A stretch of DNA of 64,000 nt from Thiomonas intermedia (GTDB lineage: Bacteria > Pseudomonadota > Gammaproteobacteria > Burkholderiales > Burkholderiaceae_C), in NCBI RefSeq assembly GCF_002028405.1, contig NZ_CP020046.1:1550001-1614000 (forward strand), written 5' to 3'. The notes beneath the pieces were generated by a model. That model searched no databases. It had not been told where the DNA came from and saw only the letters and a program-made list of their open reading frames with translations. A program made the translations under genes and the position numbers. Positions 45,498-63,716 of the stretch are shown here, one piece after another. Each line of letters begins with the position of its first letter. Position 1 is the first letter of the stretch.

Positions 45498-47088
<1,591 letters not shown>

Positions 47089-47463
47089 AGTGATGATGCC
47101 GGGTGCGTGCATTTGGCGTTTTTCGGCATAAATCGTCTATAAACAATAGGTTAGTGAAGTCTCTGCTGCGCTGCATGGGCGTCCTTGACGCCGCACTGCG
47201 GTGCATTATGCCGATCAATGCCGCTATTTGGTTAAGATTAGCATAAATCAAAAGTTCACATGTTTGACCTTCGGTGTCGTTGTCGACGCGGAGCCTGCCA
47301 GTGCTGTGGTCTTCGATATATGGCAGGGCTTTACGCCTGATTCCTGGAAGAGATACAGCCGATGGTCCGGCGCTGAGGGCTTCACTGTGCGCAGAGCTTT
47401 ATCATCACTATCGTGGCCAAACGTTAATAGTGGACGTGGCTATGTTCACTCGTGAGAATAACC
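47089..47463. other. AT-richer spacer between recombinase att site and fic
   Basis: No gene. The segment 47130-47270 is more AT-rich than its neighbours and could be the outer flank of an att site or an upstream control region for fic. I see no tRNA 5' half here that would restore the truncated tRNA. Confidence 0.45.
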
Positions 47464-48627
47464 ATGCAGCGCGGAGAGACGGGACAATTTGAGGTCGCAA
47501 GCACCGCGGGCGAGGTCGTACACGCCTTCATCCCGACACCGTTGCCGCCGGTCCCGCCGCTGGATCTGACCGGGCAGCGACAGAAGCGACTCGAAGCCTC
47601 GCTGCTGGCCTGCGGCCGGCTTGACGGCATCGCGGCGATGTTGCCTGATCCGGACCTCTTCCTATACACCTATGTGCGCCGCGAGGCCGTGCTCTCCAGC
47701 CAGATCGAAGGAACACAGTCGTCGCTGTCCGACCTGCTGCTGTTCGAGCTGGAGGATGTGCCGGGTGTCCCTCTGGACGACGTGGTCGAGGTTTCCAACT
47801 ATGTCGCTGCACTCGAGCATGGCCTGACGCGCCTTCGCGGTGGCTTTCCGCTGTCCAATCGGTTGATCCGCGAGGTGCATGAGAAACTGCTGGCGCGCGG
47901 CCGAGGGGCGGATAAGCAGCCCGGCGAATTCCGTCGCAGCCAGAACTGGATCGGCGGGACCCGGCCAGGCAATGCGCTGTTTGTGCCCCCGCCACCCAAC
48001 TTCGTCGAAGCATGCATGGCCCAGCTCGAGGCCTTCCTGCACGCCGAGGACGACGGCTTGCCTACGCTGGTACGGGCGGCATTGGCGCATGTGCAGTTCG
48101 AAACCATCCACCCCTTTCTCGACGGCAACGGGCGGGTTGGACGTCTGCTGATCGCCTTGATTCTGTTCGAGTCGAACGTCCTGCGACAGCCGCTGCTGTA
48201 CCTGTCGCTGTTTTTCAAGCAGCATCGCGAGGAGTATTACCGCTTGCTGGGCCTCGTACGCACGTCCGGCGACTGGGAGTCGTGGCTCGACTTCTTCCTG
48301 GATGGGGTGGCACAGACCGCTGGCCAAGCCGTCGAGACCGCGCACCGGCTGCTGGCTCTGTTCCGAGACGATGCTGCTCGTGTGCAGGACCTCGGTCGGG
48401 CCGCTGCGAGCGCGTTACGTGTGTTCGACGCGTTGCGTGCACGACCCCTGAGCAGCATCGGCACCATCGTCGAGCGCACGGGTGCGGCCTATCCCACCGT
48501 CGCTCGGGCCGTTGAGTCCCTTGAAACTCTTGGCATCGTTCGCGAAGTGACTGGTCGCAAGCGCGAGCGCGTGTTCGGCTACACGCACTATCTGGACATC
48601 CTCAACGAAGGCGCTGAACCCTTGTGA
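47464..48627 (+). CDS. Fic-domain protein (AMPylase, class II) with C-terminal winged helix
   Basis: A 387-residue Fic protein. The active-site motif HPFLDGNGRVGR is at 216-227. An N-terminal inhibitory helix carries SSQIEG at 78-83, the (S/T)xxxE(G/N) motif whose Glu blocks ATP binding, which makes it class II and self-inhibited. The C-terminus has a winged-helix segment (GTIVERTGAAYPTVARAVES, LGIVREVTGRKRERVF). Such proteins transfer AMP to protein hydroxyls; the target is unknown. ATG 47464 chosen; a GTG 12 bp earlier is possible. It stands alone, followed 47 bp later by the IS630. Confidence 0.92.
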   Translation: MQRGETGQFEVASTAGEVVHAFIPTPLPPVPPLDLTGQRQKRLEASLLACGRLDGIAAMLPDPDLFLYTYVRREAVLSSQIEGTQSSLSDLLLFELEDVPGVPLDDVVEVSNYVAALEHGLTRLRGGFPLSNRLIREVHEKLLARGRGADKQPGEFRRSQNWIGGTRPGNALFVPPPPNFVEACMAQLEAFLHAEDDGLPTLVRAALAHVQFETIHPFLDGNGRVGRLLIALILFESNVLRQPLLYLSLFFKQHREEYYRLLGLVRTSGDWESWLDFFLDGVAQTAGQAVETAHRLLALFRDDAARVQDLGRAAASALRVFDALRARPLSSIGTIVERTGAAYPTVARAVESLETLGIVREVTGRKRERVFGYTHYLDILNEGAEPL

Positions 48628-48732
48628 TGTTCTAGCGCCGTCACATCTCCGATGACCTTCACTCTCGGCTCCTAGTACAACATCCCTGAAATACCGTTAC
48701 ATAGAGAGGGGCATGAAGTAGACTGTTTGGCC

Positions 48733-49872
48733 ATGAGTCGTGAGCGCGTGGCATCAGTCATCAAGTTGTCGAGGAAGGATCAGGCGAAGCTGCGAGATAC
48801 GCTGCGTCGGGGTACGGCGCCGCAGCGCGACGCGCTGCGAGCGCGGATCGCGTTGCTGCTCCACGATGGACACACGATCTCGTCGATCGCATCGACGTTG
48901 CAGGTGTCGCGGCCGACCGTGATGCGCTGGCGAGAGCGGCTTGCGCAATCGGGTGTGGAAGGCCTGCACGAGGGGCTGCGCCCGGGCCGACCTCGACAGA
49001 TTGACCCGGCGCAGCGTTTGCAACTGCTGGCGCTAGCGTGCGAGACCGGCGAGGATCGCGCCGGGACGCTGCCGACGCTGGATGAGTTGTGCGTGCGCGC
49101 AGTGGAGCGAGGCGTGGTCAAGCACATCAGCCGTAGCCACTTGCAGCGCATTTTGCAGGCTGGCGACGTGCGGCCGCACCGCGTTCGGCAATGGTTGCAT
49201 TCGCCCGACCCGCAATTCCGCGAGAAGGTCAACGCGATTTGCGCGCTGTACCGGCGCGCGCCCAAGGGCAGCGTGGTGCTGAGCGTCGATGAGAAGACCG
49301 GCATCCAGGCCATCGAGCGCAAGCATGCGGATCGCCACGCGCAACCCGGGCGACTGCGCCGCCACGAATTCGAATACATCCGCCACGGTACACAGGCGCT
49401 GACCGCGGCGCTGGACGTGCATACCGGCCGTGTGCTGGGGCGCTGTACCGATCGCCGCACCCAGGCCGACCTCGTGGCTTTCATGGAAGACGTCGCGCGC
49501 GCATATCCCAGCGGGCCCGTGCATGTCATCTGGGACAACCTCAATACCCATCGCGCCTGGGGCGTGTGGCAGGCGTTCAATGCCCGACACGGCGGACGCT
49601 TCGTCTTTCACTACACCCCGCTGCATGCCAGTTGGGTCAACCAGATCGAGTTGCTGTTCGGCATCTACGCCCGCCGGGTGCTGCGCCGTGCCAGCCACAT
49701 CTCGGTGCACCATCTGCGCGAGCGCACCGAGGACTTCATTGCCCAGCGCAACCTCGATCCGCGACCGTTCCGCTGGACGTTTGCAGGCTTCGAGTTGCAA
49801 ACTGGGGAGCCTAGGCATCACGTCCATTGCTCTCGCCATGACCGCACCCCTCGTCCCCGACCCCGCCAGTGA
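48733..49872 (+). CDS. IS630 transposase, copy 2
   Basis: Identical, residue by residue, to the transposase of copy 1, with the same helix-turn-helix, DDE residues (SVDEKTG, VIWDNLNTH, NQIELLF) and length of 379. The intact frames and identical sequence suggest both copies are active or recently so. Confidence 0.93.
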   Translation: MSRERVASVIKLSRKDQAKLRDTLRRGTAPQRDALRARIALLLHDGHTISSIASTLQVSRPTVMRWRERLAQSGVEGLHEGLRPGRPRQIDPAQRLQLLALACETGEDRAGTLPTLDELCVRAVERGVVKHISRSHLQRILQAGDVRPHRVRQWLHSPDPQFREKVNAICALYRRAPKGSVVLSVDEKTGIQAIERKHADRHAQPGRLRRHEFEYIRHGTQALTAALDVHTGRVLGRCTDRRTQADLVAFMEDVARAYPSGPVHVIWDNLNTHRAWGVWQAFNARHGGRFVFHYTPLHASWVNQIELLFGIYARRVLRRASHISVHHLRERTEDFIAQRNLDPRPFRWTFAGFELQTGEPRHHVHCSRHDRTPRPRPRQ

Positions 49873-50134
49873 ATTGCAGGGCTTGCTCGCCCAGTTGACC
49901 GGGCACGCCGCCGCCCGAGTGCGCCGCTATGGCAAGCATCTGCTCATCCAGATGCAGCGCGACGAATCCCTCGACACCGTCGCCCGATTGACCGAGACAG
50001 GGCGCGACCACTACGTGGCTGCCTTTCGAACCCATTCAGGGCGTTGGGAGCCACTGCCCGCCTCCGGCAACCTGCACCAAACCGCCGAGATCGTGGTCGC
50101 CATGCTGGCGCCATACCTTGATCCTGAGCTGTAA
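49838..50134 (+). CDS. Accessory small protein of the IS630 element, copy 2
   Basis: The 98-residue second gene of the element, identical to that in copy 1 and overlapping the transposase 3' end by 35 bp. Function unknown. Its right end lies 22 bp from the element's terminus. Confidence 0.65.
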   Translation: MTAPLVPDPASELQGLLAQLTGHAAARVRRYGKHLLIQMQRDESLDTVARLTETGRDHYVAAFRTHSGRWEPLPASGNLHQTAEIVVAMLAPYLDPEL

Positions 50135-50161
50135 CTCTATTTAAGGGATGTTGTACTAGTC

Positions 50162-50878
50162 ATGCAACCGCAAAGCCACGAAAGAGGCAGTGCGATCAAA
50201 CTCGGCGCGCGTCGCTTTCGATGGGAGATCGTCAGACTCAGCGCAATTCGGGGTCTCCACCAGGCGATTCCAAACGACGTGGCCGCCGGCTATCCTGGTA
50301 CAGAGGATGATGTGCTGGCATTGACCACAGATGGAATCAGCCTTCTATTGCATCTGCATCCCCTGATCTTGCAGCAGGCCGGAAAGAGGGTGAGCAAGGG
50401 CTTCGTTGTCATTGGTGGGTTGAACACGTGGCAAGCCCTTCAGCCGTGGCATGCGGCCAGGATGCGGCTTGAGTCGATCGAGTCCAGCCGCCTCAGTGAT
50501 CAAGAGTGCGTCGCCACCCAGCAGATTTCTACACCCAACGCGGGCAAAGATCGATCACGCGCCGCTTGTTCCGTGCTCGAACCGCTCATCGAAGAAGTTC
50601 CGGCGCTCGTCATATCCAGCAAACTCGACGACGATGACATCGCTCGGTTGGCCCTCGCCGAGCGATGGCTCTTGGCCGCCAGTGTTGCACCCAAGCGGAG
50701 GATCGGCCGTGAATTGACCGCTCTTCATGGGCAAGCAAAGACACTGGGCCTTATCGACGAACTCACACCGCAGCTGCGGACTTTTACGGCATTGGCCCGC
50801 GTATTGGGTGTGACGACCCAGGGCCTACGGAAACAGCGCAGCGATGTAGACAGCAGCGACGATGGTGCAGACGCCTGA
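50162..50878 (+). CDS. First gene of the recombinase operon: unrecognised 238-aa protein (faintly ParB-like)
   Basis: A 238-residue cytoplasmic protein starting MQPQSHERGSAIKLGARRFR. I do not recognise a family with certainty. Residues 22-100 loosely follow a ParB N-terminal pattern: VRLSAIRGLHQAIP, then GFVVIGGLNTWQALQPWHAA, like the box that reads G-x-R-R-x-x-A in ParB. The C-terminal part is helical with LARVLGVTTQGLRKQR, which could be a DNA-binding helix-turn-helix. The stop overlaps the next gene by 17 bp. The IS630 insertion ends 5 bp before its ATG and has removed its native leader. Confidence 0.75.
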   Translation: MQPQSHERGSAIKLGARRFRWEIVRLSAIRGLHQAIPNDVAAGYPGTEDDVLALTTDGISLLLHLHPLILQQAGKRVSKGFVVIGGLNTWQALQPWHAARMRLESIESSRLSDQECVATQQISTPNAGKDRSRAACSVLEPLIEEVPALVISSKLDDDDIARLALAERWLLAASVAPKRRIGRELTALHGQAKTLGLIDELTPQLRTFTALARVLGVTTQGLRKQRSDVDSSDDGADA

Positions 50879-53378
50879 GACAGAACCCGCGAGCCGAGCC
50901 ACGGGCGCGATCGAGCGGTTGTCCCGGTTGTGTGGCCACGATGCGGACGTCAATGCATTGCTGGAATGGATTGAGCCGCCCGCATCGGCACAAGCGTTGC
51001 CACTGGTCCTCGAGGGCCTGCGCGATCTGTTGCCAGTCATGCGCGATCTTGCAGCGGACAAGCCGGACTTGTTCGACGTTGTTGACAACGCGAAATTCGA
51101 TGCGCTGAGAAGTGGCCTCGAAGAAATTGCCCCTGTCCTTCGCAACCTCCCAGCAGAGCTGGAACTGGCTGAAGTCCGTCCATCGCCTCGGCGCCCCAAG
51201 CAACCGTTCCGCGGGGTGATGTCAGGGTATCCCTTGTATACCCTGATCGGGACATGGCGGCATTTTGAAGCACGCGATGCCAAAGCCAAGACCATGCGGC
51301 CCGCCCTGGCTGCCATTGTCTTGTTTGCGAAGGTGCGCAGTGTCATGCAGCACGGGGCTGACGATGGCGCGACTCCCCTGTATGCCGGAGCCAAGGCTGC
51401 ACGGCAAATGCTCGAAAGTGCAGCGATCCCCGAATCGTGGAGCATGTCGTTATCTGGCCTGATTGACGGCATTCGCGGGAGCGAAGCACAGTACCGCAGT
51501 GTCGCGGACGAGGGTGTACGCCATGCAGAACTGCGACGCCTGGTCGAGCCAGTTCTAAGAGCTCGCGGCCTGATCGCCGAGCGGCCTCCCAATGGCGCGC
51601 CCGAAGACCACGTCGTCGTCATCGAGCTGCAGCAGGCGCTGCCGACGGATCGCATTGACGTGCAGCGGGAGCTCCGCCTCCACACCAGCACCAAGGACGA
51701 TCTCGAACGGGATGGGCTGACCCCGGGTGAGTTCGACACGGCGGAGGAGTACATCGAGTGGACTGAGTATGGGGAGGACTGGGATGCCGAGGCGAGCCCT
51801 GCAGGGATCGAGTTAGAGCCATTGGAGCGGAGTCTCGCGGAGCAGGTCATTCGAGCCCGGAGTCTGATTGGGCGGCGCGAACGGGCCGCCCAGCTGCTCG
51901 CCTGCGACTGGATACGCCCGGCTGACGTTGAGATCGCAGCGCTGTGGGCGACTCTGAAGCTTCGGCCGACAGCAAGCCCTGACGATCAGGAACGGGAAAT
52001 CAGAGCACTGCTGGCCGTGACATTGTGGACGGGCAGGCCGGTTCAGGAGGTCGCAAGGATGCAGATCATCAACCGGCGTGAAAAGGCGCCCGAGCAGTGG
52101 TCGGCAGGCCTGTTGATGTGGGCCATCGATACCCGCGATCTGGCCGCCTCGGTGCTGCGTCCAGTCGGCCAACCCAAGCATCGCGGCATCGACCTTGGCC
52201 AGGCCTTGCCAACCGTTGACCGTATCACGCTCGATGTGGATGAGCTCCTCGGTGACTTTCTCGTCGTCTTGCCCAATGCGGCTTCCCTGGCTTCGTCTGA
52301 GCGGGTTCGAGCGGCCATGGCGTTCGCCACGCCGACGAAGACCTTGATCGAAGCATCGCGGAGTTGGGTACGCGAGCACGCAAAGCAGGAGCACGGTCGC
52401 CTCACCTTGGCGATGGTCGAGACGTGGATGTTCAGATGCATCGTTGAGCACCGTCGCGACCATGCACTCGCCAGTTTGTTGACGGGGAGGCCGCATCAAC
52501 TTGCCGACACCGGTTTGCATTACCTCTGCGTCAGTGCAGACGAGGCCGCGCAATGGCTTCGCGCTGAACAGCGGCAGAGGTTGGCCGAATTGAGTCGGGC
52601 GGCGCTCCCCATTCCCTATGCCATCGCCGAGGACAGAGAAATCCGGGCGCAGATCGGTAAAGCGGTGACCACAGTCGTTGGTGCACGGGTTGTGCCCCGA
52701 CTCGAAGTGATCCATCGCATGGTTCGGTCACTGCGGAAGGAACTGGATTTGCAACGGGGCATGCCGATGGCCAGCGATGCCCGCTTGAAATTGCACAACG
52801 CCTACACGCAGTATGTGCATGCGATGCTTCGTTTTGCCCTTGGGATGCGTGACGTGGGACAACCGTTGCCCAATTGGGAGCGCATCGACACGAAGAACAT
52901 GGTCGTGCTGCTGAGCGACAAGGATGATGTGGCCAGCACGGCCACACGAATCGCGCCGCTTTGCCCCACCCTTTCCCGGCAGCTCCAGCTTTACGCGAAG
53001 CACTGGCGCGCGACTTGGGCGAAGTTGCTCTCACACTCATGCGATAGCCTGCCTCCGGTGTTGTTCTACCTTTTGCGCAAGGGCTCGCATGTCCAGGTGA
53101 TCGAGCGCCCCACTGCGGAGATGCGGCAGCAATTCAAGCTTCTAACGGGCTACGGTCTGCCGCTGAATTCAAGTCGCCACTGGCTGCGGACGCGCCTCGC
53201 ACAGGAGGGCGTGCCAGGCGAGATGATCGAAGCTTTCATGGGGCACTGGCAGCGAGGCGCTGAGCCGTGGGGACGGTATAGCGCTCTGCCTGCGCGGGTG
53301 GTGACCGAGACCTTGCGCCCAACGTTGGAAAAACTCGTGTGCGAGGCGGGTTTCAGCGCGCTAAGAGGCTGGGCATGA
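50862..53378 (+). CDS. Giant tyrosine-recombinase-fold protein B (838 aa)
   Basis: An 838-residue protein with a divergent tyrosine recombinase domain only at its C-terminus: ArgI in LRFALGMRDVGQ (Arg663), a possible beta-hairpin Lys in LLSDKDD (Lys687), HxxR in SSRHWLRTRL (His773, Arg776), His795 in FMGHW, and nucleophile Tyr806 in WGRYSALP. All five catalytic positions are filled. The first 600 or so residues are helical with an acidic patch around 285-320 and match nothing I know. Ordinary integrases are 300-450 residues. Its ATG lies within gene A and its TGA overlaps the next ATG (ATGA). Confidence 0.85.
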   Translation: MVQTPETEPASRATGAIERLSRLCGHDADVNALLEWIEPPASAQALPLVLEGLRDLLPVMRDLAADKPDLFDVVDNAKFDALRSGLEEIAPVLRNLPAELELAEVRPSPRRPKQPFRGVMSGYPLYTLIGTWRHFEARDAKAKTMRPALAAIVLFAKVRSVMQHGADDGATPLYAGAKAARQMLESAAIPESWSMSLSGLIDGIRGSEAQYRSVADEGVRHAELRRLVEPVLRARGLIAERPPNGAPEDHVVVIELQQALPTDRIDVQRELRLHTSTKDDLERDGLTPGEFDTAEEYIEWTEYGEDWDAEASPAGIELEPLERSLAEQVIRARSLIGRRERAAQLLACDWIRPADVEIAALWATLKLRPTASPDDQEREIRALLAVTLWTGRPVQEVARMQIINRREKAPEQWSAGLLMWAIDTRDLAASVLRPVGQPKHRGIDLGQALPTVDRITLDVDELLGDFLVVLPNAASLASSERVRAAMAFATPTKTLIEASRSWVREHAKQEHGRLTLAMVETWMFRCIVEHRRDHALASLLTGRPHQLADTGLHYLCVSADEAAQWLRAEQRQRLAELSRAALPIPYAIAEDREIRAQIGKAVTTVVGARVVPRLEVIHRMVRSLRKELDLQRGMPMASDARLKLHNAYTQYVHAMLRFALGMRDVGQPLPNWERIDTKNMVVLLSDKDDVASTATRIAPLCPTLSRQLQLYAKHWRATWAKLLSHSCDSLPPVLFYLLRKGSHVQVIERPTAEMRQQFKLLTGYGLPLNSSRHWLRTRLAQEGVPGEMIEAFMGHWQRGAEPWGRYSALPARVVTETLRPTLEKLVCEAGFSALRGWA

Positions 53379-56300
53379 CAGGGTCCGCTTGGGGTGGTTT
53401 CGACATCGATCCCATTGCTGTTTCAGGGGCAGCCTCAGACATTCGGCGCCGGCGAGAGGCCAGCGAAACCCGGCGCGTTGACGTGCAAAGCACGGTGCGT
53501 GCATGGATCGAAGATGGGGGACATCGTTCCTGGCTCGAGGGGCAGATGGGCCTTACCGTAGACGCGCAACATGTCAAGGCGCTGCGCGCGAAGATTGACC
53601 TGGTCTATAGGGGGTCAGATAGGCGATGGGCGACGAACTATCTTGTCCGAGGCCTCGAACGTGGGCGGCTGCAGTGCGGCTGGCATGTGAAGGTGCCCCC
53701 GCACGTTCTCACGTTGCGATTGCCGTCGCCTCAGCTCAACGCAGACACCTTCGTCGGGCTGACAAAGTCAACTGACATTGAGCAGGCCATCCTCGCGTCC
53801 TGGGGCCAATGCGCGCAGTCTGCGGCCCCGGCGACGCAGGAGATGATCATTATTAGTGCGATCTGGCATTCGGCGCTGATTGATCGAAAGCGCATCAACG
53901 CTGTCGACGAACAGTTGCGTGCGGGGTCCGTGCGTGTCACTGCTGACGGGCAGTGGGCCTGGGTGGAATGGCAGGACGCACCAGGCAACTGGCAGCGCCA
54001 TGTGTTCGATCCATACACGACCCTTTTGATCTTGCGTTGGTTGGACGATCGCGTCAGCGGGCCCGACAACTCTGTGGAGGCAACGCCAAAAGATCGAGAG
54101 TCTCCCTCGCTTAGGTTGTCGCTCAGGGTCTGGCGCACCCTGAGAGCGAGGCTCGGCAGTGAGGCGTTTGGCGTGCGCTGTTGGTCGGACTTCCTAGGCG
54201 CGGCGCAGGCCAAATGGCACTACGTCTTGCCGCCGGCTCTGGCGCACTACGCGCATGGGAAGATCAGTACCGCATCACTGCCTCCACATGCGTGCTGGCG
54301 GGTGCTTCTTGGAAAGAGGCTCGCACCGCAACCAGCCGAACGTGCCGAGGATGGCGAAGAATCGCCCGCCAGCTTCGTCGCAGATGGCAAGGGCAAACGA
54401 GGACGTGCCCCAGGCCAAGGTGCTCGCGCGCAGCCGGCCGGACGCAACGGCGAAGTCCGCGCACTGATGCTTGGCGACAACCGGCGTGCGGGCGTTGTCC
54501 TCGCCGCTCTGAGGCGCTATCGGAAACAATTAAGCGACTCCCGAAAACTCGACTGGATCCTGTGCGACTGGATGATTGCGCTGATGCGCCCGAGTGGTCG
54601 AACAGGCAATCGCCTGAGTTCCGCGCGCGAGTTGCTTACCCGAGTTGACCGTAGGCTTGACGCCGTGCTGGGCTCGACTCTTCCCGACGATCCATCGATC
54701 TGGAACGATTCGATCGAGGCCATCATTCAGTGTGCACCGCAGAGCAGCCGCGGCAACATCCGCACCGCGCTGGCTATGCTCGACGCCCATGTGCGCAGCG
54801 TGCGGTGCTGGGAGCATCCCGAGGCTGACCTCGGCAGGGATGAGGGTAGCGTTGTCGATGCCCAAGTTGTGACCGAACGGGAGTTTCAAGATGTGATGCA
54901 GGAGTTGCGAGCGCAGGCTGTATCCCGCGAATGTGAAGTCGCCGCAATCCTCGGCTACCGATGCGGGCTGCGGCGCACGGAAATTCGAGGCCTGCGCCTG
55001 ATCGACTTTCAGGGTCGCGTGGAGCCTTTGCTATTCGTGCGCAGCCATGCGGGACGCGCGCTCAAACGCGATAGCGGCCGTCGCGTGCTGCAGCTCAAAA
55101 GCCTTTGTACCGAGGATGAGCTCGGGCTGCTGTACGCGCAAGCCGACGCCAGCGAGCGCATGGCGCAAGCCTCGCCCATTGCGCGCGACCTGGTCCTGCT
55201 GCTTCCTCAGGCCAGCGATCCGGCGGCACGCCTGCCCGAAGAGTCGTTGCTTGGTCCGGTCCAGGATGTGTTGCGACAGATATGCGGAGAAGGCGCGATT
55301 CGATTTCATCACCTCCGGCACAGCGCCGCGAACCGCACGCTTTGTGACTTGATCGAGGCGGCTGTCCCGCGGGCATCGCATCTGCTCGACCCAGAAGGGC
55401 TGAGTCGAGACATCGCATCTTTGCGTCACCGCGCTCTTGTCGGAGCCGGGCAATCGCTGAGACCGCTGGTTTGGGCGACCAGTGCCCTTCTGGGGCATGT
55501 CACACCCCAAACCACGCTCGGCAGCTATGTGCACGTTCTGGACATGTTGCTCGGCCATGCAACACGCCGGGAAGCCATGGCTCTGCGTATCCCCTCAATG
55601 ACGCTGGCCTGGCTGGGGAAGACTAGGCCGTCCAGCATTGATGTGCTGCGCCACAGCCTCAAATCCGCCGCAGGCAGCGCTACACCTCAAACGCTCGCGT
55701 CGGTGTTGATCGCGCGCCTCGTGCCCAAGCTCTCGCAGCGTTTCCCGCTGTCGTGTCCGTGGCCAGTCGAGTCACTCCAGAAGGCTGGCCGCCGGTCAGC
55801 GGTGGCGGCGGAGAACGCAGCGTCCAAGCGCTTGGGCAACATTGTCGAGGCACTGCGCCTGATCCACGCGTTGCGGAATAATCCGAAAGCGCCCGAGGCC
55901 CTTCGCTTTGCCGGACCGACCGTGTGTCGGGCCATCGCAGAGCAAACTCGACGCTGGTCATCCTTGCGCGGCCCGAGCCCTGCGAGGCGGGCGACATCGG
56001 GCTACGTCGACGGGACGATCCGCGTCGGGGCCCTGGCGCTGGATCGGCCTCGAAAACATCGACTGCTTAAGCCCAGGGCGTTGGAGCGCGATGCGCAGTC
56101 ATTCCTGGCTGCCTGGCGCGCATGGCACAGTGAGGAGCCGGTGGCGGTCGAGAGGGTGCTGACCGTGCACTGGGCAAGGCATGACACAGACGACCACGCA
56201 ATCGTCTTCACCGACATCGAAGAAGCTCAGCTATGGCTGAGCGCGGTAGGCCGTTTGCATTCTTTGGGCGCTCCGTTGCTGCTTGATGCGCTGCAGTGGC

Positions 56301-56569
56301 ATCACACGCCCAACGCTCGTGGCGCCGGCAGCGCGATCATCCAGCGCAACGCGTGGTTGAAGGAACTTCAAATGGACTGGGTGACGGTGACCAATGCGGC
56401 GCCGCGCAGCTTTGCACGCGCCAAACCAGTCCCCGCGGCGGGAGCATTGCGTGCGGGTGACGGCAATCAGCGCGGGCACTCCGGGGGGATGCTTCAGGCG
56501 CTTGATGCCGCCTCCTACGTTATGACATTGTCAATCTTGATTCGCGCCTCGTTGGGTCAAGTCACCTAA
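53375..56569 (+). CDS. Giant tyrosine-recombinase-fold protein C (1064 aa)
   Basis: A 1064-residue protein with a tyrosine recombinase domain in its middle: ArgI in GYRCGLRRTEIRGL (Arg533), Lys564 in RALKRDSGRR, HxxR in IRFHHLRHSAANRT (His645, Arg648), His708 in LLGHVTPQTT and Tyr718 in GSYVHVLD. About 500 residues precede it, including a charged Gly/Arg/Ala linker (near 325-360), and about 340 residues follow, with KHRLLKPRALERD and a helical tail. The extensions match nothing I recognise. ATG 53375 gives a 4-bp overlap with gene B; no terminator is evident after it. Confidence 0.85.
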   Translation: MTGSAWGGFDIDPIAVSGAASDIRRRREASETRRVDVQSTVRAWIEDGGHRSWLEGQMGLTVDAQHVKALRAKIDLVYRGSDRRWATNYLVRGLERGRLQCGWHVKVPPHVLTLRLPSPQLNADTFVGLTKSTDIEQAILASWGQCAQSAAPATQEMIIISAIWHSALIDRKRINAVDEQLRAGSVRVTADGQWAWVEWQDAPGNWQRHVFDPYTTLLILRWLDDRVSGPDNSVEATPKDRESPSLRLSLRVWRTLRARLGSEAFGVRCWSDFLGAAQAKWHYVLPPALAHYAHGKISTASLPPHACWRVLLGKRLAPQPAERAEDGEESPASFVADGKGKRGRAPGQGARAQPAGRNGEVRALMLGDNRRAGVVLAALRRYRKQLSDSRKLDWILCDWMIALMRPSGRTGNRLSSARELLTRVDRRLDAVLGSTLPDDPSIWNDSIEAIIQCAPQSSRGNIRTALAMLDAHVRSVRCWEHPEADLGRDEGSVVDAQVVTEREFQDVMQELRAQAVSRECEVAAILGYRCGLRRTEIRGLRLIDFQGRVEPLLFVRSHAGRALKRDSGRRVLQLKSLCTEDELGLLYAQADASERMAQASPIARDLVLLLPQASDPAARLPEESLLGPVQDVLRQICGEGAIRFHHLRHSAANRTLCDLIEAAVPRASHLLDPEGLSRDIASLRHRALVGAGQSLRPLVWATSALLGHVTPQTTLGSYVHVLDMLLGHATRREAMALRIPSMTLAWLGKTRPSSIDVLRHSLKSAAGSATPQTLASVLIARLVPKLSQRFPLSCPWPVESLQKAGRRSAVAAENAASKRLGNIVEALRLIHALRNNPKAPEALRFAGPTVCRAIAEQTRRWSSLRGPSPARRATSGYVDGTIRVGALALDRPRKHRLLKPRALERDAQSFLAAWRAWHSEEPVAVERVLTVHWARHDTDDHAIVFTDIEEAQLWLSAVGRLHSLGAPLLLDALQWHHTPNARGAGSAIIQRNAWLKELQMDWVTVTNAAPRSFARAKPVPAAGALRAGDGNQRGHSGGMLQALDAASYVMTLSILIRASLGQVT

Positions 56570-56854
56570 AGTAGGTACGCCAAGGGCCGAGGGAGCGAAG
56601 GCACCTCCGTTCAGGGAGCCCTGTGGGCAATTCTCATGTTTCTAGCGATCGCAGAAATCCTGAGGTGCACGCTTTTGCTGTGGTCCTTCGCATCGCAAAG
56701 GCGACCCCTGCAGGTCGCTGATCTCGCCGAGATCGCCGGGCTATCGGCCTTGATCTGGGTGGTGTCGATCTACCAGTTGAGACCGCTTCTCTACCTATAG
56801 ACACGGCACGAATTATCCGTGAACTTTAAGGTGTCGGCCCTGATTTATTCATCT
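56570..56854. other. Downstream flank of the recombinase operon, with a doubtful 54-aa ORF
   Basis: One ORF (56636-56800, plus strand, 54 aa) reads MFLAIAEILRCTLLLWSFAS and later SALIWVVSIYQLRPLLYL, so it would make a small two-helix membrane protein. No ribosome site is visible. The region should contain the right boundary of the recombinase element if there is one; I cannot identify it without a comparison genome. Confidence 0.35.
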
Positions 56855-57345
56855 TCAAGGGGCGGCCAGTCGCAGCGCTGGGCCGTTGAGCGCATAGCAG
56901 GCGAGTTCGCGCAGCATCGGATGCCAGTTCGGGCGTAAGTGCGCAGCCTGACACAGGCGCAAATAAAGCCGACTCACAAAGGGCACCCCCTTCCTGGCGA
57001 TCATGCGCAGCAGCCATTTGATGTTGTAGCCTGCCGCGCACAGCACGGCGTGCAACCGGTCGCCCTGCTCACCCTTGAGGGGACAACGGTCCATGCGGTG
57101 ATCGCTCTTGAGGTGGCCGATGATGGGCTCGATGGCCTGGCGCCGCTTGAGTTGATTTCTGTCCTTGCTGCTGATGCGTTTGGATTTGCCCCGGTGCACG
57201 ATATGCACATCCGGGTTGCCAGCATCCACGCCCCGATAGCCCAGGTCAACGAACGCGGTCGCCGGCTTTGACCTGCTGTCCTGCATCAGGATCGTGGCCC
57301 GCTCCAGTTGCTCGCTCAGGGTGTGGCCGTCGTAGGCCCGGGTTC
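56855..57345 (-). pseudogene. C-terminal fragment of an IS5-type transposase
   Basis: The minus strand reads RAYDGHTLSEQLERATILMQ, then AFVDLGYRGVDAGNPDVHIV and EPIIGHLKSDHRMDRCPLKG, then GYNIKWLLRM. These are the ordered C-terminal motifs (DGHTL, the YRG region and the region with catalytic Glu) of IS5-family transposases. Everything N-terminal of about 57345 is lost. It lies next to another transposase relic. Confidence 0.85.
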
Positions 57346-57400
57346 AACAGTTCGCGGCGCAAATGATTGATTTCTCATGTGTGAATTTGGAATCGCTCCA

Positions 57401-57747
57401 CTACAAGAGGGTCAGTTGAGTGTTGAGTGTCGGTTTTTTGATGGTGAGTGCCGACAAGATGTCGGTGTGCTCCTGGCGGATCGTGAACAGGCCCGCAGCG
57501 GGTTGCGCGACACCGAGCGTGACCTGGTGATGTTGAATGCGGCGCAGATTGTCCAAGGCGCACTCGGGGGACAGGCGGGTGGCGCTGGCCTGCAGTCGCG
57601 TGCGCATGACGCGGTGCAGCATTAAGGCCATGAAGCAGATGGCGGCATGGGCGCGAATGCGCTCAGGCAAGCGGTGGAACATCGGGCCGATCTCGATCTC
57701 CGACTTGAGGGCCCGAAAGCCCCGCTCGATGTCGGCCAGAGACTTGT
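57401..57747 (-). pseudogene. C-terminal part of an IS1634-type transposase, split by IS21
   Basis: The frame reads SLADIERGFRALKSEIEIGP, MFHRLPERIRAHAAICFMAL and HRVMRTRLQ, the standard end of IS1634-type (IS4 superfamily) transposases with the catalytic Glu. At 57747 it is interrupted by the IS21. The missing piece continues at 60425; joined across one target copy the frame gives VVGRYKSLADIERGF without a break. Confidence 0.88.
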
Positions 57748-57797
57748 TGTCACTTTTCGGCATAAAGGAGCCAGCCATTTTCGGCACATAGAGACCA
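57748..57797. repeat. Left-end 25-bp repeats of the IS21 (two units)
   Basis: Two adjacent units of about 25 bp, each with the core TTTTCGGCA(C/T)A then (G)AGNCC, start at the left terminus. They are inverted relative to the five units at the right end and are probably IstA binding sites. Confidence 0.7.
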
Positions 57798-57842
57798 GCC
57801 GGAGGGTCTCAAACGGGCATCATTCGGTTGTGGATTTTGCCT

Positions 57843-58634
57843 TTATTTGATGTCTTTTGGTTGATTGGATCTCTGGGTTTTGGTTGGCATTGCGTTGGGC
57901 ATCTGGCGTGGCGTGCGGTAAGACTGGCCATCGAGCACGAGGCAATAGGCGTTGTGGCGCAGGCGGTCGAGCGTGGCGGAGGCCAACAAGGGGTTGCCTG
58001 GGAAGGCCTGATCCCACTCGGTGAAGTCCAAATTGCTGGTGACGATGGTGGTCGTTCGTTCGTAGCGCTCGGCGATGAGTTCATGCAGATCCTCGTCGGC
58101 CGGTGCGCGCAGGGGCTTGAGTCCGAAGTCATCGATGATGAGCAGGGGAATACGGCTGAGCGCCTGCAGTTTGCGTTCGTAGGCATTGGTCGCACGCGCG
58201 GCGTGCAGGGACTGCGTGAGGGCCGAGCAACTGGTGAAGAGCACATCAACGCCTTGGCGGATGGCGCAGTGGCCCAAGGCCTGTGCCAGGTGGCTTTTGC
58301 CAGTTCCACTGGGTCCGACGATCAACACAGGTGAGCATTCCCGCAAATAGCGTCCGGTGGCCAGGTCGTGCACCAGTGCGCGGTTGAGTTGGGGGAGCCG
58401 CTCGAAATCAAACTGCTCCAGGGTCTTGCTCGACCGAAACTGAGCCCGGCGGATGCGGGTGCTGAAGCGGTTCTGGTCGCGGCGGGCCACTTCATCGCCC
58501 ATCAGCAGGGCCAGGAATTCCGTATAGGCGAGTTTGGATTCAATGGCTTGGCGGTTCCTGGCCTCCAGAGAATCCAGGATGCCGGACAAGCGCAATTGCT
58601 TGAGGTGTGGAACCAGTTCGGGAATGGGGATCAT
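57843..58634 (-). CDS. istB: IstB-type helper ATPase of IS21
   Basis: A 263-residue DnaC-like AAA+ protein. Walker A is VGPSGTGKSHLAQALG near residue 105, Walker B IPLLIIDDFGLKPL, and TTTIVTSNLDFTEWDQAF is the sensor 1 region. IstB assists IstA in target selection and transposition. ATG 58634 has AAGGAG upstream, and the frame above is a shadow. It starts 22 bp after istA ends. Confidence 0.93.
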   Translation of the reverse strand: MIPIPELVPHLKQLRLSGILDSLEARNRQAIESKLAYTEFLALLMGDEVARRDQNRFSTRIRRAQFRSSKTLEQFDFERLPQLNRALVHDLATGRYLRECSPVLIVGPSGTGKSHLAQALGHCAIRQGVDVLFTSCSALTQSLHAARATNAYERKLQALSRIPLLIIDDFGLKPLRAPADEDLHELIAERYERTTTIVTSNLDFTEWDQAFPGNPLLASATLDRLRHNAYCLVLDGQSYRTPRQMPNAMPTKTQRSNQPKDIK

Positions 58635-58656
58635 GGGTGAGTTGCTCCTTGGGGGG

Positions 58657-60222
58657 TTAATGCAGGAGGTCCTGCTGCGGGTTGTGGGCATTGGGGGTGA
58701 ATAGGCTGGCGGCATCGCGTACGAACCGGGCCTTGGCATAGGCGGGCGCGACACTGATCTCGGGCATCGGCAGACGGTCGGCATTGCTGCTCAGGATGGT
58801 CTTGACGGTGCGGTAATACGGGCTGTTGTGGGCCATGGCACGCTGGCAGGCAAGCTCCAGACGTTGGGCGCCGTAGGTCCTGGCCAGGCCAACAACGCCC
58901 TGTGCTGCACGCAGCCGCTCCACAATCCGGTCGCCCAGCAGGCAGTCAATGATCTGCTGGCAGTACGGCCCGATTTGCAGCGCTTGCTCATGGAGCCATT
59001 GGCGGTCGCGCGCGAAGAACAGTTGCGCCTTGGGTGGCAAGTGGTCTGGCGTCGTGACGCGTTGGCCAGGACGCGTCCCGCGCGGGTGGGTGGCCACCAA
59101 TCGGTAGTCTTCATAGAGGGCAACACAACCATCGTTGGCACGCAGCCACAACTGCTTGCCCACCAGCCCAAAGGGCGCGGAATACAGGGCGTTGTCAAAC
59201 TTGACGTGGCAATCGCGGTGCAGCGTCACCCGCTGCCACACGCCCAAGTCCGGGGCCTGGGCGGGCAATGGCTTGAGCAGGGCTCGCTCCAGCGCAAACA
59301 AATCCAGGGGTTGTTGGCGGGTGGTGCCGTGAATGCGCTGCCCGGCTTCCTGTAATACCCAGGCCCGTACTTGGGCATTGAGGTCGGCCAGATCACGGAA
59401 TTCGCGGGTGGGCAGGAAGTTGCGTTTGACGTATTTGACGCCTGACTCCACGATCCCTTTCTTCTGCGGGTCGTGTGGCGGACAGGGGTCAATCTTGAAG
59501 TCATACCCTTCAGCGCACTCTGCATAGGAGCGTTGCACGTGGGGATCAAACCGACAGGCCTTGATGATGGCGCACTTGGCGTTGTCGATGATGACGCGCT
59601 CGGGCACGCCGGCAAACCACTCAAAGGCGCGGCGGTGGCAGCCCAGCCACGTCGCCACTGTCTGGTCCCAGACGAATTCCACATACTGGTGGCGGCTGTG
59701 GCACAGGGTCATGACAAAGGCCCATGTGCGCCGGCGAAGGCCATCCGGGTGCAGCAGAAACGGGCCAGCACCGAAGTCGACCTGAGCAGCCTCGCCGGGT
59801 TTGAAGTTCAGCCGCACGGTGACATCCGTGCGCGGCTGCGCCCGGCTGATGTCGCGCATGAGGCGGTAGACGGAGGAGTAGCTGCCCTTGAATTGGTGAT
59901 CGCGTACCAGCGCGGCATGGATGGCCACGCCCTCAACGCCCGCGTCCATCCAGCGCGCAATGAGCTCACGCCAGGGCTGGGCTTTGGAGATCGTGCTGAC
60001 GGGGCGCCTGGCCACCGCGCTCAGACTCTGCGCAATCGTTTGGGCGTCAGGCGGCGGCCGATCCGGATCCAGCCAGCCCAGGCTCTGAGCGTGCTGGCGA
60101 AAGTTGGCCACCTTGACGCGGCCCATGAGCCCCAGGCGCGCTATCTCGCGGTCGCCATCACCCGCACGCAGTCGAATTAAAACGTTTCGGTATTCATGCA
60201 TCTCGATCTTTCTGCGCCCCAT
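58657..60222 (-). CDS. istA: IstA-type transposase of IS21
   Basis: A 521-residue DDE transposase. An N-terminal helix-turn-helix (LRAGDGDREIARLGLMGRVK) precedes the rve core: AQVDFGAGPF (first Asp), VIIDNAKCAII (second Asp), and PHDPQKKGIVESGVKYVKRN with the catalytic Glu. A long C-terminal domain follows (HRDCHVKFDNALYSAPFGLV). ATG 60222 was chosen for the start MGRRKIEMHEYRNVL with a purine-rich leader; the frame is open to 60288 and the true start could be earlier or at 60201. Confidence 0.9.
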   Translation of the reverse strand: MGRRKIEMHEYRNVLIRLRAGDGDREIARLGLMGRVKVANFRQHAQSLGWLDPDRPPPDAQTIAQSLSAVARRPVSTISKAQPWRELIARWMDAGVEGVAIHAALVRDHQFKGSYSSVYRLMRDISRAQPRTDVTVRLNFKPGEAAQVDFGAGPFLLHPDGLRRRTWAFVMTLCHSRHQYVEFVWDQTVATWLGCHRRAFEWFAGVPERVIIDNAKCAIIKACRFDPHVQRSYAECAEGYDFKIDPCPPHDPQKKGIVESGVKYVKRNFLPTREFRDLADLNAQVRAWVLQEAGQRIHGTTRQQPLDLFALERALLKPLPAQAPDLGVWQRVTLHRDCHVKFDNALYSAPFGLVGKQLWLRANDGCVALYEDYRLVATHPRGTRPGQRVTTPDHLPPKAQLFFARDRQWLHEQALQIGPYCQQIIDCLLGDRIVERLRAAQGVVGLARTYGAQRLELACQRAMAHNSPYYRTVKTILSSNADRLPMPEISVAPAYAKARFVRDAASLFTPNAHNPQQDLLH

Positions 60223-60299
60223 CCGTTGCCCCTGAGCAAAAAGCTCAGAAGGTAACGGCGCTTGTGACGCGTTCGAGATGCCCGTCAAACCCCTTGGCT

Positions 60300-60424
60300 G
60301 GCTCCTATAGGCCGAAAATCAACTGGCCTGTATGTGCCGAAAACGCACTGGCTCGTATACGCCGAAAACGCGGTGGCTCCTATGTGCCGAAAACCGATTG
60401 GCCTATATGTGGTGAAAAGTGACA
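60300..60424. repeat. Five tandem 25-bp repeats at the right end of IS21
   Basis: Five consecutive 25-bp units share the pattern GGC(T/C)...TAT(A/G)(T/G)GCCGAAAA, the last one ending in the terminal GTGACA. They lie between the istA start region and the right terminus and probably serve as transposase binding sites overlapping the istA promoter. They are not a CRISPR: no spacers separate them. Confidence 0.75.
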
Positions 60425-60545
60425 CTTGTAGCGCCCGACGACATCGGCGGGGGTCAGATCGGGCACATTTGTCACCAGAAGATGTTGCCACTGACGTTGC
60501 TCTAACCGCGCTGCTGAGCGAAGCCGTGAATACGCGGCCGCCGTG
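60425..60545 (-). pseudogene. Upstream part of the IS1634-type transposase relic
   Basis: The minus-strand frame gives ARLEQRQWQHLLVTNVPDLT then PADVVGRYK up to the IS21 target duplication. This is the segment that directly precedes the part at 57401-57747. Above about 60545 the similarity fades into the Crp/Fnr remnant, so the transposase N-terminus is gone. Confidence 0.8.
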
Positions 60546-60649
60546 AATAACTCGCCAGATGAATGGGTTATGGCAATCAAGGCTGGTAACGGCCCGAGCG
60601 GAACATGCTGCTTTGTCTGCTCCATCTCGCGTTGGCGACAACACTTGAG

Positions 60650-60900
60650 CGCATCCATGAGAGCCGGCCCGGTGTCGCTGCGCCTTCCCAGTAGCAAGGG
60701 CACAATAGCATCCAGGCTGAATCTCACCGAAGAGCACTTCTCGCGAGTCCTGCACCAACTCAGCGAGGCTGGGCTCATCCGCGTCGAAAAGCGCGTCATC
60801 CATATCCCGGGCATTCAGCGCTTGAGGGCAAGTGCAAGCGGAATCGGGGTGCCGGTAGCCGAGATTCGTGGCGCTATGCGCGAGCTAACGGCCGGCTGTG
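60650..60900 (+). pseudogene. 3' remnant of a Crp/Fnr-family regulator gene
   Basis: A frame reads LRLPSSKGTIASRLNLTEEH then FSRVLHQLSEAGLIRVEKRV and IHIPGIQRLRA, the helix-turn-helix and end of a Crp/Fnr activator. A preceding helix (LLCLLHLALATTLERIHESR) appears in another frame, and the cyclic-nucleotide-type sensor domain is missing. The frame runs on into the UbiC-like gene. Truncated by the transposase relic on its left. Confidence 0.6.
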
Positions 60901-61470
60901 GCCGCGCAGCGCGGCCACAGCCGGCAGGAAGACCTCGGTCACCCAAAGCGCCTGGCCACGATGCACGAAGGCGGATCGCCGCGCCCACAACGGCGTCGCC
61001 GTAGGCAGTCCTGCGTATGCGCAGGCGGCGCGCCGCAAGGCGTCGCGGGGCGGCAAGCGTCGCACCCGGATCTCGCCGCGGCGCGTCATCGCGCGCGCGA
61101 ACACGGCTTCGCCGACCGGTTGACTGCCCAGCGCCACCAGCAGCCGCCAGTTGCGGCGCAGCACGTCGCGACGCGCTACGCTCTGCCCATACACCACAGG
61201 CACACCGTCAGCAAACAGCACCACCTCGCGCGACCACGCTCGCCGGCCCAGCGGCTGCGCCAGCAGCGGCGCCTCGTCGCGCCGCGGCCGCGCCAGGCCC
61301 TGATGCAGTCGCAGCAGGCTGAAGGCACCGCAGTGTGCGCGCAACCGCGATGTCAACGAGCCGCGCTCGGCCAGCCAGGCGGCGATGCCACTGCGCCCGC
61401 CGCAGGGGTATAGCGGCCGCCAAGCGTGATCAACGCTAGCCCCGGAAGCGTACTTGCCGCGCCCTCGCAT
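60874..61470 (-). CDS. Chorismate lyase-like protein (UbiC family)
   Basis: A 198-residue protein. The core follows UbiC: SGIAAWLAERGSLTSRLRAH, SREVVLFADGVPVVYGQSVA with the Arg of the active site, and LVALGSQPVGEAVFA. UbiC converts chorismate to 4-hydroxybenzoate, the first step of ubiquinone synthesis. The family usually has 165-200 residues. The first 20 residues (MRGRGKYASGASVDHAW) have no counterpart I know. It is surrounded by relics, so it may be orphaned; no ubiA follows. Confidence 0.75.
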   Translation of the reverse strand: MRGRGKYASGASVDHAWRPLYPCGGRSGIAAWLAERGSLTSRLRAHCGAFSLLRLHQGLARPRRDEAPLLAQPLGRRAWSREVVLFADGVPVVYGQSVARRDVLRRNWRLLVALGSQPVGEAVFARAMTRRGEIRVRRLPPRDALRRAACAYAGLPTATPLWARRSAFVHRGQALWVTEVFLPAVAALRGHSRPLARA

Positions 61471-61482
61471 GCGATGCCCGAG

Positions 61483-61584
61483 TTACTTGCTGCCCAGCGC
61501 GGCGCTGAGGTCACCGGACTCGACTGCGCCAGTCACCAACACGCAACCGCTGGCCGCGACAATGAACAGGGAACGGACTCTCAT
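61483..61584 (-). CDS. Very small ORF with lipoprotein-like N-terminus
   Basis: A 33-residue ORF starts MRVRSLFIVAASGCVLVTGA and ends SGDLSAALGSK. The N-terminus looks like a short signal with a Cys in a lipobox-like context. It may be the start of a secreted protein gene truncated by rearrangement, or chance. It is too short to classify. Confidence 0.25.
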   Translation of the reverse strand: MRVRSLFIVAASGCVLVTGAVESGDLSAALGSK

Positions 61585-61692
61585 GATGGTTCAATTCAAA
61601 CGCGGTAACGTTGATCAACGCAGCATTTCCAACTCCAAAGCATAGCCGGTGCGGGCGCTTTTGAGCAGCGGCAATGTCCAAGTCGGCGCCTA

Positions 61693-62803
61693 GTCCACTG
61701 CGTCATTGAGATGGCACCGGGTGGATTCGGCGCGATGGATCGTCGTACTTCCACTTCACGGGTTTGGGATTCTTGTTGTGCGCGCGGATGTAGCGCATCA
61801 ATTTGCGATCCAGATCCTTCACGGAGGTGAAGATGCCACGACTGATCACGTCGCGCTGGATGCGGGAGAACCAGTTCTCCACCTGGTTCAGCCACGACGA
61901 ATACGTGGGCGTGTAGTGAACGCGCACATGGCCATGCTCAGCCAGGAACTCCGCGACCCGCTCGGTCTTGTGGCTGCTGACGTTGTCGCAGATCACATGA
62001 ATGTCCTGGTGCGCAGGTTGGCTGGCCACGATGTCGGTGAGGAAGGCGACGAACTGCTCGCTGGTGTGGCGCGGTGCGGTCTTGCCCAGGACTTCGCCGG
62101 TGGCTGTGTTCAGCGCCGCAAACAGGCTCAGCGTGCCGTTGCGCTTGTATTCGAACGAATGGCTCTCGGCGCGCCCGCGCGACAGCGGCAGCATGCGGTC
62201 CTTGCGATCCAGCGCCTGAATCGCGGTCTTCTCGTCCACGCAGAACACCGCCGCGTGCGCAGGTGGGTTCAAGTACAGCCCAATGACATCGGCGGCCTTG
62301 GTCTCGAACGCCCGGTCGTTGGAGATCATGTGGCACTCGAGCCTGTGCGGACGAATGTTGTGCTTGCGCCAGATACGCTGCACGGTCGACACCGACACGT
62401 CCCCGAGTTCGGCGGCCAACTTGTAGCTGCTCCAGTGCGTCGAACCGTCCGACGGTTTGTGTCTGAGCGTGCGATTGAGAACCCGCGCCTCAAGCTTGGC
62501 CACCGGCTGCTTCGGCGCCCGCCCGGGGTGCCTCGCGTACATACCGGCCAACCTCTCGCTCAGAAAGCGGCTCGACCAGCGTGAGAGAAATCGCGAATCA
62601 CATTCGAGCCTGCGCATGATCGTTTCACGCGATTCACCGTCCTCAAGCATGAGGATCAACTTCGACCTGCGCACATCGGCCGCGCGCATCGTTCGACTGC
62701 GCACGATCGCCTCCAGTTGATCTCGCTCTGCTGCACTCAGATTCATCTTGCCCATGCCCCCATTTCACCATCAATGGGGTGCGTTTTCAATGACGCATTG
62801 GGC
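61693..62803 (-). mobile_element. IS630-family element of a second type (1111 bp)
   Basis: The ends match as inverted repeats (TGCGTCATTGA at both, with flanking CTAG), and TA is duplicated at 61691-61692 and 62804-62805. It carries one transposase gene occupying almost its whole length. It differs in sequence and size from the two 1482-bp copies but uses the same CTAG target. It lies beside the start of a cupredoxin remnant. Confidence 0.9.
61703..62755 (-). CDS. IS630-family transposase (second type)
   Basis: A 350-residue DDE transposase. The helix-turn-helix region is ESRETIMRRLECDSRFLSRW. The catalytic residues are in VFCVDEKTAIQALDRK, IHVICDNVSSHKTERV and SSWLNQVENWFSRIQRDV. It ends 10 bp from the left terminus of the element, so it is complete. 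It lacks the second small gene of the 1482-bp type. Confidence 0.93.
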   Translation of the reverse strand: MGKMNLSAAERDQLEAIVRSRTMRAADVRRSKLILMLEDGESRETIMRRLECDSRFLSRWSSRFLSERLAGMYARHPGRAPKQPVAKLEARVLNRTLRHKPSDGSTHWSSYKLAAELGDVSVSTVQRIWRKHNIRPHRLECHMISNDRAFETKAADVIGLYLNPPAHAAVFCVDEKTAIQALDRKDRMLPLSRGRAESHSFEYKRNGTLSLFAALNTATGEVLGKTAPRHTSEQFVAFLTDIVASQPAHQDIHVICDNVSSHKTERVAEFLAEHGHVRVHYTPTYSSWLNQVENWFSRIQRDVISRGIFTSVKDLDRKLMRYIRAHNKNPKPVKWKYDDPSRRIHPVPSQ

Positions 62804-62806
62804 TAG

Positions 62807-62918
62807 CGGTAAGGGTGATCTGATCTGGCGCTTCTACAAACCCGGAACCGTCAATTTCGCCTGGGCGATGCTCGGGCATCTGGAAGCTGGCATGGTTGGC
62901 AAGATTCTGGTGGAGTGA
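62807..62918 (+). pseudogene. C-terminal remnant of a cupredoxin (plastocyanin/azurin-like) gene
   Basis: The frame reads KGDLIWRFYKPGTVNF then AMLGHLEAGMVGKILVE and stops at 62918. This is the end of a copper-binding cupredoxin, where FAC..PGH..AGM supplies the Cys, His and Met ligands. Here the Cys is replaced by Trp (FAWAMLGH), so type-1 copper binding would be lost. The IS630 stands directly upstream and no matching N-terminal part is evident on its other side. It is a relic. Confidence 0.68.
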
Positions 62919-63164
62919 GCGCTCCACATGAGGTAGCGGGGGTGGCGCTCGGCAACTGCGGGGCTTGACGTTCTCAAAAATCTTGCTTGACTGTCGCCTT
63001 CTACTGTTTCGTGCCGCGCCTCCCGCCGCAAAGCGGGACCGTTTGCCCGCGAAAATCGCCTCCCTCCCGACGTCGCGGGCAGGACCCGTCCGTCCGGCAC
63101 TTCAGCCAGCAAGGCATGATGGGCCAGTTCACCGTGGCCTGAGTGCCCCGGGTCCGGGACGCTT
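62919..63164. other. Spacer between cupredoxin relic and the TlpA gene
   Basis: No gene is visible in these 246 bases. The segment lies downstream of two convergent genes (the plus-strand relic and the minus-strand TlpA), so a terminator is expected, but I see no clean hairpin with a T-run. Confidence 0.4.
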
Positions 63165-63716
63165 TCAGCGCATCAGGGCCTCGATGGTTTGCCGAATCTG
63201 CGGGGTGTTGTAATCGCGCCCGCCGACGGCCTGCCGGACGATCAGACCCCGCTTGTCGATCAGATAGGTTGTCGGAATCCCCATCACGCCGAAAGCATGC
63301 GCCACCTGACTATGCTGGTCCAGCAACACCGGAAATGTGGGCGAGGGATTGAGTTCCCCCATGTAGGCGAAGACGTTGTTCAGGCTCTCGCCCTGGTCCA
63401 GCGCCAACACCTCAAAGGGGCGACCTTTCATCGACAGGTAAAGCCTTTCGATGGACGGCATCTCCTGCCGGCATGGCGGGCACCAGGTTGCCCAGAAATT
63501 CACCAGCACCACCTTGCCGCGGTAGTCAGCCAGACGGTGTGCTTTGCCGTCGATGTTCAGCAGGCTGAAGGCCGGCGCTGGGCGCGGTGGCTGCACCACC
63601 GCGAGCGCTTGATCTTGCACTGGGCTGGCGGCAAACGCGGTGCGAGCTCTGGCTGCCGCCAGCAATCCGGCGCCACCGAGCCAGGACAGCACTTGGCGGC
63701 GCTCAGGGTTAGCCAT
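63165..63716 (-). CDS. TlpA/ResA-like thiol-disulfide oxidoreductase, Tat-exported
   Basis: A 183-residue thioredoxin-fold protein. The N-terminus MANPERRQVLSWLGGAGLLA is a twin-arginine-like signal. The redox site WCPPC is in VNFWATWCPPCRQEMP, with the cis-Pro in MGIPTTYLIDKRG. Such proteins reduce disulfides in the periplasm, for example in cytochrome c or copper-centre maturation. ATG 63716 overlaps the stop of the upstream gene (ATGGCTAA) and gives a proper short Tat N-region; a longer start (63770) with GGAG upstream is possible. Confidence 0.87.
   Translation of the reverse strand: MANPERRQVLSWLGGAGLLAAARARTAFAASPVQDQALAVVQPPRPAPAFSLLNIDGKAHRLADYRGKVVLVNFWATWCPPCRQEMPSIERLYLSMKGRPFEVLALDQGESLNNVFAYMGELNPSPTFPVLLDQHSQVAHAFGVMGIPTTYLIDKRGLIVRQAVGGRDYNTPQIRQTIEALMR

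Follow-up and report, generated by a model that had tools for sequence, protein, structure and literature searches.

The overlapping genes A, B and C of Thiomonas intermedia are best read as part of a new class of tRNA island, in which the recombination genes are split between two ends. On the sequence comparisons presented here we favor, with moderate confidence, the view that the trio is a conserved distal-end module of such islands, whose recombination genes lie at, or inward from, both sides, and we lean to a similar degree towards the trio working in the recombination of the islands that carry it. Islands at tRNA genes are a main route by which metal resistance and other traits pass between bacteria and are usually assumed to need one integrase; a conserved giant-recombinase module at the opposite end would change views of how ends are recognized and cargo retained. 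Trio islands go largely unannotated because none of the three genes is represented by a family model in the libraries searched, and in public records B is labelled "hypothetical protein".

The window, that is, the whole stretch analyzed, is 64,000 nucleotides long (G000:C1:1550001-1614000, G000 being the T. intermedia genome). The trio is single-copy in this 3.34-Mb genome, a search of which gave no second copy of B. The features of the window, and the integrase E that lies beyond it, are as follows (YR, tyrosine recombinase).

47044..47088, minus strand: distal attachment repeat, a tRNA-fMet 3' half (3' end to anticodon loop)
47452..48627, plus strand: Fic/DOC-family gene between the attachment repeat and A, common to the closest relatives (L051 and L052)
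48677..50155, plus strand: IS630-family insertion sequence, 7 bp upstream of A, with its target CTAG repeated
50162..50878, plus strand: A, small first gene of the trio, 238 aa
50862..53378, plus strand: B, 838 aa, with a helical N-terminus, YR fold 1 (349-565) and YR fold 2 (607-830), as predicted
53375..56569, plus strand: C, 1064 aa from ATG, with a YR domain at ~500-725 between large N- and C-terminal extensions
57747..60421 (end approximate), minus strand: IS21-family insertion (istA/istB) downstream of the trio
47044..61694: segment common to the Burkholderiales MAG L051 (97%), the two insertion sequences aside
61695..64000: start of the remaining island, which continues beyond the window to ~97307
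G000:C1:1645395-1646633, minus strand: E, arm-binding tRNA integrase (Arm-DNA-bind_2 and Phage_integrase)

The 17-bp (A/B) and 4-bp (B/C) overlaps described in the initial annotation were borne out, and the homologous A-B-C trios found elsewhere argue that the three are genes and not chance open reading frames. Trios in the same order were found in a genome of the same genus (B 45% and C 46% identical), in Aeromonas caviae, on Acinetobacter plasmids, in Marinobacter and in several MAGs, with partial or diverged sets in Sphingobium and Sulfuricurvum; these relatives occur in proteobacteria. B and C stand in one reading frame of ~1,680-1,830 codons at L032, L037, L075 and L102, and L108 encodes a 1,279-aa partial B-C fusion. 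Such fusions argue that B and C act together. A split trio accompanied by E, a second trio with B and C fused, and a gamma-mobile-trio were all observed in one genome (G212; L034, L037, L038). Scans of viral contigs returned nothing for B and C.

The immediate surroundings of the trio vary. The two insertion sequences are later arrivals, since they are absent from relatives that are 97% (L051) and ~90% (L052) identical; three further copies of the IS21 are present in the T. intermedia genome. Toxin-antitoxin-like genes of the HipA, Fic and HTH kinds are repeatedly found next to the trio (L014, L016, L054, L060, L074 and the window), and the Fic/DOC-family gene at 47452..48627 is not a conserved trio partner.

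Comparison of genomes, which the initial annotation had proposed as a way to find element ends, placed the left end at a tRNA sequence. DNA common to the window, L051 and L052 (the last sharing 47054-56588 of the window) starts at 47043-47054, which is the tRNA-fMet 3' half. The repeat is identical at 42 of 45 positions to the intact tRNA-fMet gene (G000:C1:1647308-1647384, minus strand), which lies 50.3 kb away in the same orientation. The island of T. intermedia is a heavy-metal island of ~50 kb that extends from window position 47044 to ~97300, with CusA/CzcA, CusB, a Zn/Cd/Pb ATPase and CadR/PbrR as cargo between D and C. Just inside the intact tRNA-fMet are E and D, a protein with an HD domain; E is on the opposite strand to the trio and 39 kb from it.

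The same arrangement was found at other tRNA genes: tRNA-Asp in A. caviae (46.5-kb island, repeat 49/49), tRNA-Arg-CCG in G345 (36.8 kb, 44/46) and tRNA-Met in G243 (34/34, split over two contigs). An intact tRNA gene, a far 3'-end repeat and an inner integrase, the marks of a tRNA-targeted integrative island, are thus present together in T. intermedia, A. caviae and G345, and over two contigs in G243. The three contiguous islands share the order tRNA>E>...<C<B<A-att, and in all four, with their different tRNAs and cargo, the trio is found just within the distal repeat, A being the gene turned towards it. Starting at the 3' end of the tRNA, the repeats extend as far as the anticodon arm (in G243 clearly for 34 nt), as expected of a tRNA-targeting integrase. 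When trio loci totalling 605 kb were scanned for tRNA 3' halves, 14 matches were obtained, compared with none in shuffled sequence, and six of the 14 are antisense and at most ~3.1 kb upstream of A (window, L051, L060, L013, L056, L108). L031 is an exception, with tRNA-E-D-A-B-C in a row and every gene pointing the same way.

The left flank was joined to the tRNA gene in none of the relatives examined. Relatives of the same genus have rearranged or other neighbors at tRNA-fMet, the neighbor in G007 mapping elsewhere in the T. intermedia genome, and no Aeromonas relative for an empty-site comparison was identified in the genome sample. A tRNA-Val repeat pair in G155 was considered as a pair of trio ends and rejected, as it brackets a neighboring island instead. 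In G005, a tRNA-Pro half lies 8.7 kb upstream of A, and no intact tRNA-Pro was found in the 131 kb to its right.

During these comparisons we noted additional variation at tRNA-fMet. A serine recombinase gene (region 45498-47087) has its stop at 47087, inside the tRNA-fMet half, and a partial copy at 7017-7469 (region 6955-7512), 91% identical, ends in a truncated tRNA-fMet piece (...CAGGATTTGA). The two copies suggest a tandem island array at tRNA-fMet, with a T-loop breakpoint as in L052. The left junction of L052, at ~1584-1600, falls within the tRNA half, between GGAT and TTGAAC, with a sensor-kinase gene instead of the tRNA, and C of this locus is divided between two frames. The T-arm sequence of the tRNA-fMet 3' half differs among G000, G005 and G007, as if 3' halves had been exchanged by incoming islands, and the attachment copy at 47044-47088 differs from the intact tRNA-fMet by 3 nt.

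The association with E extends beyond the four islands. E (51-73% identical) lies at most ~5 kb from the C end of the trio at seven loci, mostly in convergent orientation, and is followed by D in several islands. Of 369 genomes drawn across one GTDB class, 13 have E and 11 have C, and the two occur together in 7 (0.4 expected; Fisher p 3e-9, or 6e-8 without the T. intermedia genome, neither value taking account of kinship). This overlap is understated, since G115, counted as having E only, has a fused B-C convergent to E. The trio likely belongs to E-type tRNA islands. The initial annotation had envisaged a self-mobilizing module standing on its own. That the system is mobile-element machinery was supported; the stand-alone reading was not, as the trio sits in larger islands bounded by tRNA halves, next to or opposite a tRNA-targeting integrase, and the simplest agent of integration in such islands is that conventional integrase.

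The presence of E also speaks against a recombination role for the trio: E by itself could account for integration at the tRNA, with the trio carried as privileged cargo. It may be that the trio is conserved for island maintenance, dimer resolution or conflict between elements, and that E and D alone move the island. As an integrase of the tRNA type, E is complete and stands next to the tRNA, and HipA, Fic and other toxin-like genes frequently adjoin the trio. Furthermore, G271 has E and D with no trio within 76 kb around E, and E is missing from the DNA examined around several Acinetobacter plasmid trios and some of the fused forms; these cases, together with the order in L031, count against a recombination role. 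However, place and orientation at the distal repeat are fixed in islands whose trios are only ~17-25% identical and whose cargo differs; this, the co-occurrence with E and the lack of a PADLOC family match speak against this explanation, which we regard as unlikely.

It is less probable still that the trio is an autonomous transposition module that targets E islands or tRNA halves and is for that reason associated with them. The complete catalytic set in C and the E-less trios of Acinetobacter plasmids would be in keeping with such a module, as would L052, in which Fic-A-B-C is joined on the left to the sensor-kinase gene and on the right, 19 bp after C, to unrelated DNA. However, no common right end and no terminal inverted repeats were found, homology to L051 runs 5 kb past C where that to L052 stops, and the left ends fall on the tRNA repeats that bound E islands. 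A distal-end module of E-type islands remains our preferred reading.

Weak matches to Phage_integrase and to PHROG integrases were obtained for C at ~500-730. At the profile level C aligns with E and with Xer proteins, and matches Xer-like YRs in the PDB at E 4e-7. In an alignment of 24 rows, R533, K564, R648, H649, H708 and Y718 are constant in the rows covering the domain (the exception, the partial row L108, does not cover it), and H645 varies in two further rows. The set that the initial annotation had listed for C (R533, H645xxR648, H708, Y718) was correct and, apart from H645, invariant. Judged by these alignments, C is a catalytically complete tyrosine recombinase. Its predicted structure had a pLDDT of 45 and no fold claims were drawn from it; an extra degenerate YR fold in the N-terminus (~150-300), suggested by secondary structure, had no profile support and was rejected.

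The predicted structure of B is of modest confidence (mean pLDDT 56, higher where the chain is folded). Structural alignment of the model revealed two consecutive YR folds, 349-565 and 607-830, with VIA-align Z scores of 12.0 over 349-547 and 13.4 over 607-830 (Z 9-13 overall). Fold 1 matches XerH, Cre and lambda Int, and fold 2 matches archaeal Xer and SSV1 Int. The top six Foldseek matches of the model were all YRs, none below E 0.04. A tyrosine-recombinase fold, which had been proposed for both B and C, is thus predicted for B on structural grounds. The one C-terminal catalytic domain originally assigned to B corresponds to fold 2, and is preceded by a second YR fold.

The full catalytic set originally assigned to B was upheld in part. 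Arg663, His795 and Tyr806 are present in the window protein; the HxxR motif is shifted. When the profile of B was aligned with that of E, SRHWLR lay over SRHTAA and R772-H773 over the RH of E, which identifies R772, not R776, as the putative second catalytic arginine, and a nearly invariant N769 stands in place of the box-II His. R663, K687 and R772 were found in 26 of 26 B proteins, and H795 and N769 in 25 each, yet Tyr806 is kept in only eight, so that no one domain of B holds a complete conserved catalytic set. Across region 330-600 of B, Tyr554 alone is fully invariant. Placing the nucleophile tyrosines of lambda Int, Cre and XerH (residues 342, 324 and 344) relative to the ranges over which these proteins align puts the expected nucleophile of fold 1 at ~551-554. 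Fold 1 thus appears to keep the tyrosine without basic residues, and fold 2 to keep basic residues with the tyrosine lost in most relatives.

We tentatively propose that B has a divided active site, to which fold 1 would give the nucleophile Tyr554 and fold 2 would give R663, K687, R772 and H795; the plain alternative is that Tyr554 is purely structural. In Flp, the tyrosine from one subunit serves the active site of another. Donor and acceptor are there divided between subunits, whereas in B they would be neighboring folds within a single polypeptide. B, with a conserved half-site in each fold, would be a natural test of an active site divided over two domains of a single chain.

A and B had no match in Pfam, NCBIfam, PHROGs or PADLOC, and A, which is poorly conserved among relatives, is not a YR by any library. 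The A profile matched ParB/Noc N-domains alone, all above E 0.1, and one member matched ParB_N at 0.013. Based on this weak, profile-level similarity to the N-domain, A may tentatively be called ParB-like. Acinetobacter plasmids share a non-coding stretch of ~110 bp upstream of A (L015 4587-4700, L069, L070-L073); at 79-86% identity it is better conserved than A, and it likely represents a promoter, operator or recombination site. In five Acinetobacter plasmids A was observed beside a urease cluster, with the expected B not adjacent.

We hypothesize that the basic crossover of both integration and excision, at the tRNA identity block, is the work of E. The three trio proteins, produced from a translationally overlapped operon and sometimes with B and C fused, would form one complex, with C as the active YR, B as its pseudo-dimeric YR partner and A as a DNA-binding accessory. 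At the distal end, this complex would work alongside E in excision, circularization or re-integration. The proposed joint action is modelled on the extra recombinases of GInts and of strand-biased circularizing elements (SEs) and their ordinary YR. In its fullest form, in which B is a single-chain YR pseudo-dimer with a divided active site that makes up, with C, the distal-end recombination complex of two-ended tRNA islands, the proposal is speculative.

Experiments support the importance of such gene sets in known systems: the ordinary YR, large YRs and small protein of GInts are all essential (PMC5385486), and the several YRs and small protein of SEs are largely so (PMC10214605). We consider it very improbable that the trio is itself a diverged gamma-mobile-trio, GInt, SE, RIT or Tn554 element. 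In all of these, a small protein is joined by several YRs, of which at least one is large (PMC10214605, PMC5385486). However, the gamma-mobile-trio family models and profile comparison were negative and the gene order is different, and in gene number, sizes, order and ends the trio is unlike GInts, SEs and RITs as published. The gamma-mobile-trio GmtY-GmtZ-GmtX (Mahata et al. 2024, cited in PMC12715929) likewise has two YR-family genes and a small one, with GmtY (441 aa) first and GmtX (200 aa) last, whereas the small gene of our trio is first. A, B and C had no match to NF040693, NF047926 or NF040692, nor any NCBIfam match at E up to 1, and a positive control locus matched all three gamma-mobile-trio models. 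Profile comparison with hhalign also gave no match. Membership of that family is thus rejected at the level of family models and profiles, which fits the related or new kind of module inferred in the initial annotation. RIT elements have three YR genes of ~315-410 aa, compared with no YR in A and 838 and 1064 aa in B and C.

The island as a whole resembles the IntBPP-1-type (PF12167, DUF3596) tRNA islands (PMC8138268), which E fits by domain content and in adjoining the tRNA; the T. intermedia island is, like them, bounded by tRNA 3'-end repeats. That subgroup, as described in PMC8138268, lacks a further module of giant recombinases at its distal end. SEs resemble the trio system in having overlapping genes, two catalytic YRs of which one is ordinary and one large, a YR-fold protein that lacks the catalytic motif, and a small auxiliary protein (PMC10214605, PMC9345347). 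They differ in forming one operon, intA-tfp-intB-srap, with no tRNA repeats and a 6-bp footprint (PMC10214605, PMC9345347); the trio departs from that operon in gene number, order and sizes, begins with the small gene, and has an arm-binding tRNA-type integrase as its partner. GInts (ginABCD, Bardaji et al. 2017, PMC5385486) share with the trio islands site specificity, an ordinary YR, further YR-related proteins, a small protein and large, variable cargo, and their GinC is without part of the catalytic set (PMC5385486), as is B at the family level. On the published description, a GInt has one operon at one end, three adjacent YR-related genes followed by a small gene, and repeats of 10-11 nt (PMC5385486). 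In contrast, the trio islands are bounded by 34-49 bp tRNA 3' halves, and carry two YR-fold genes, B and C, preceded rather than followed by the small gene, at the far end from the third YR.
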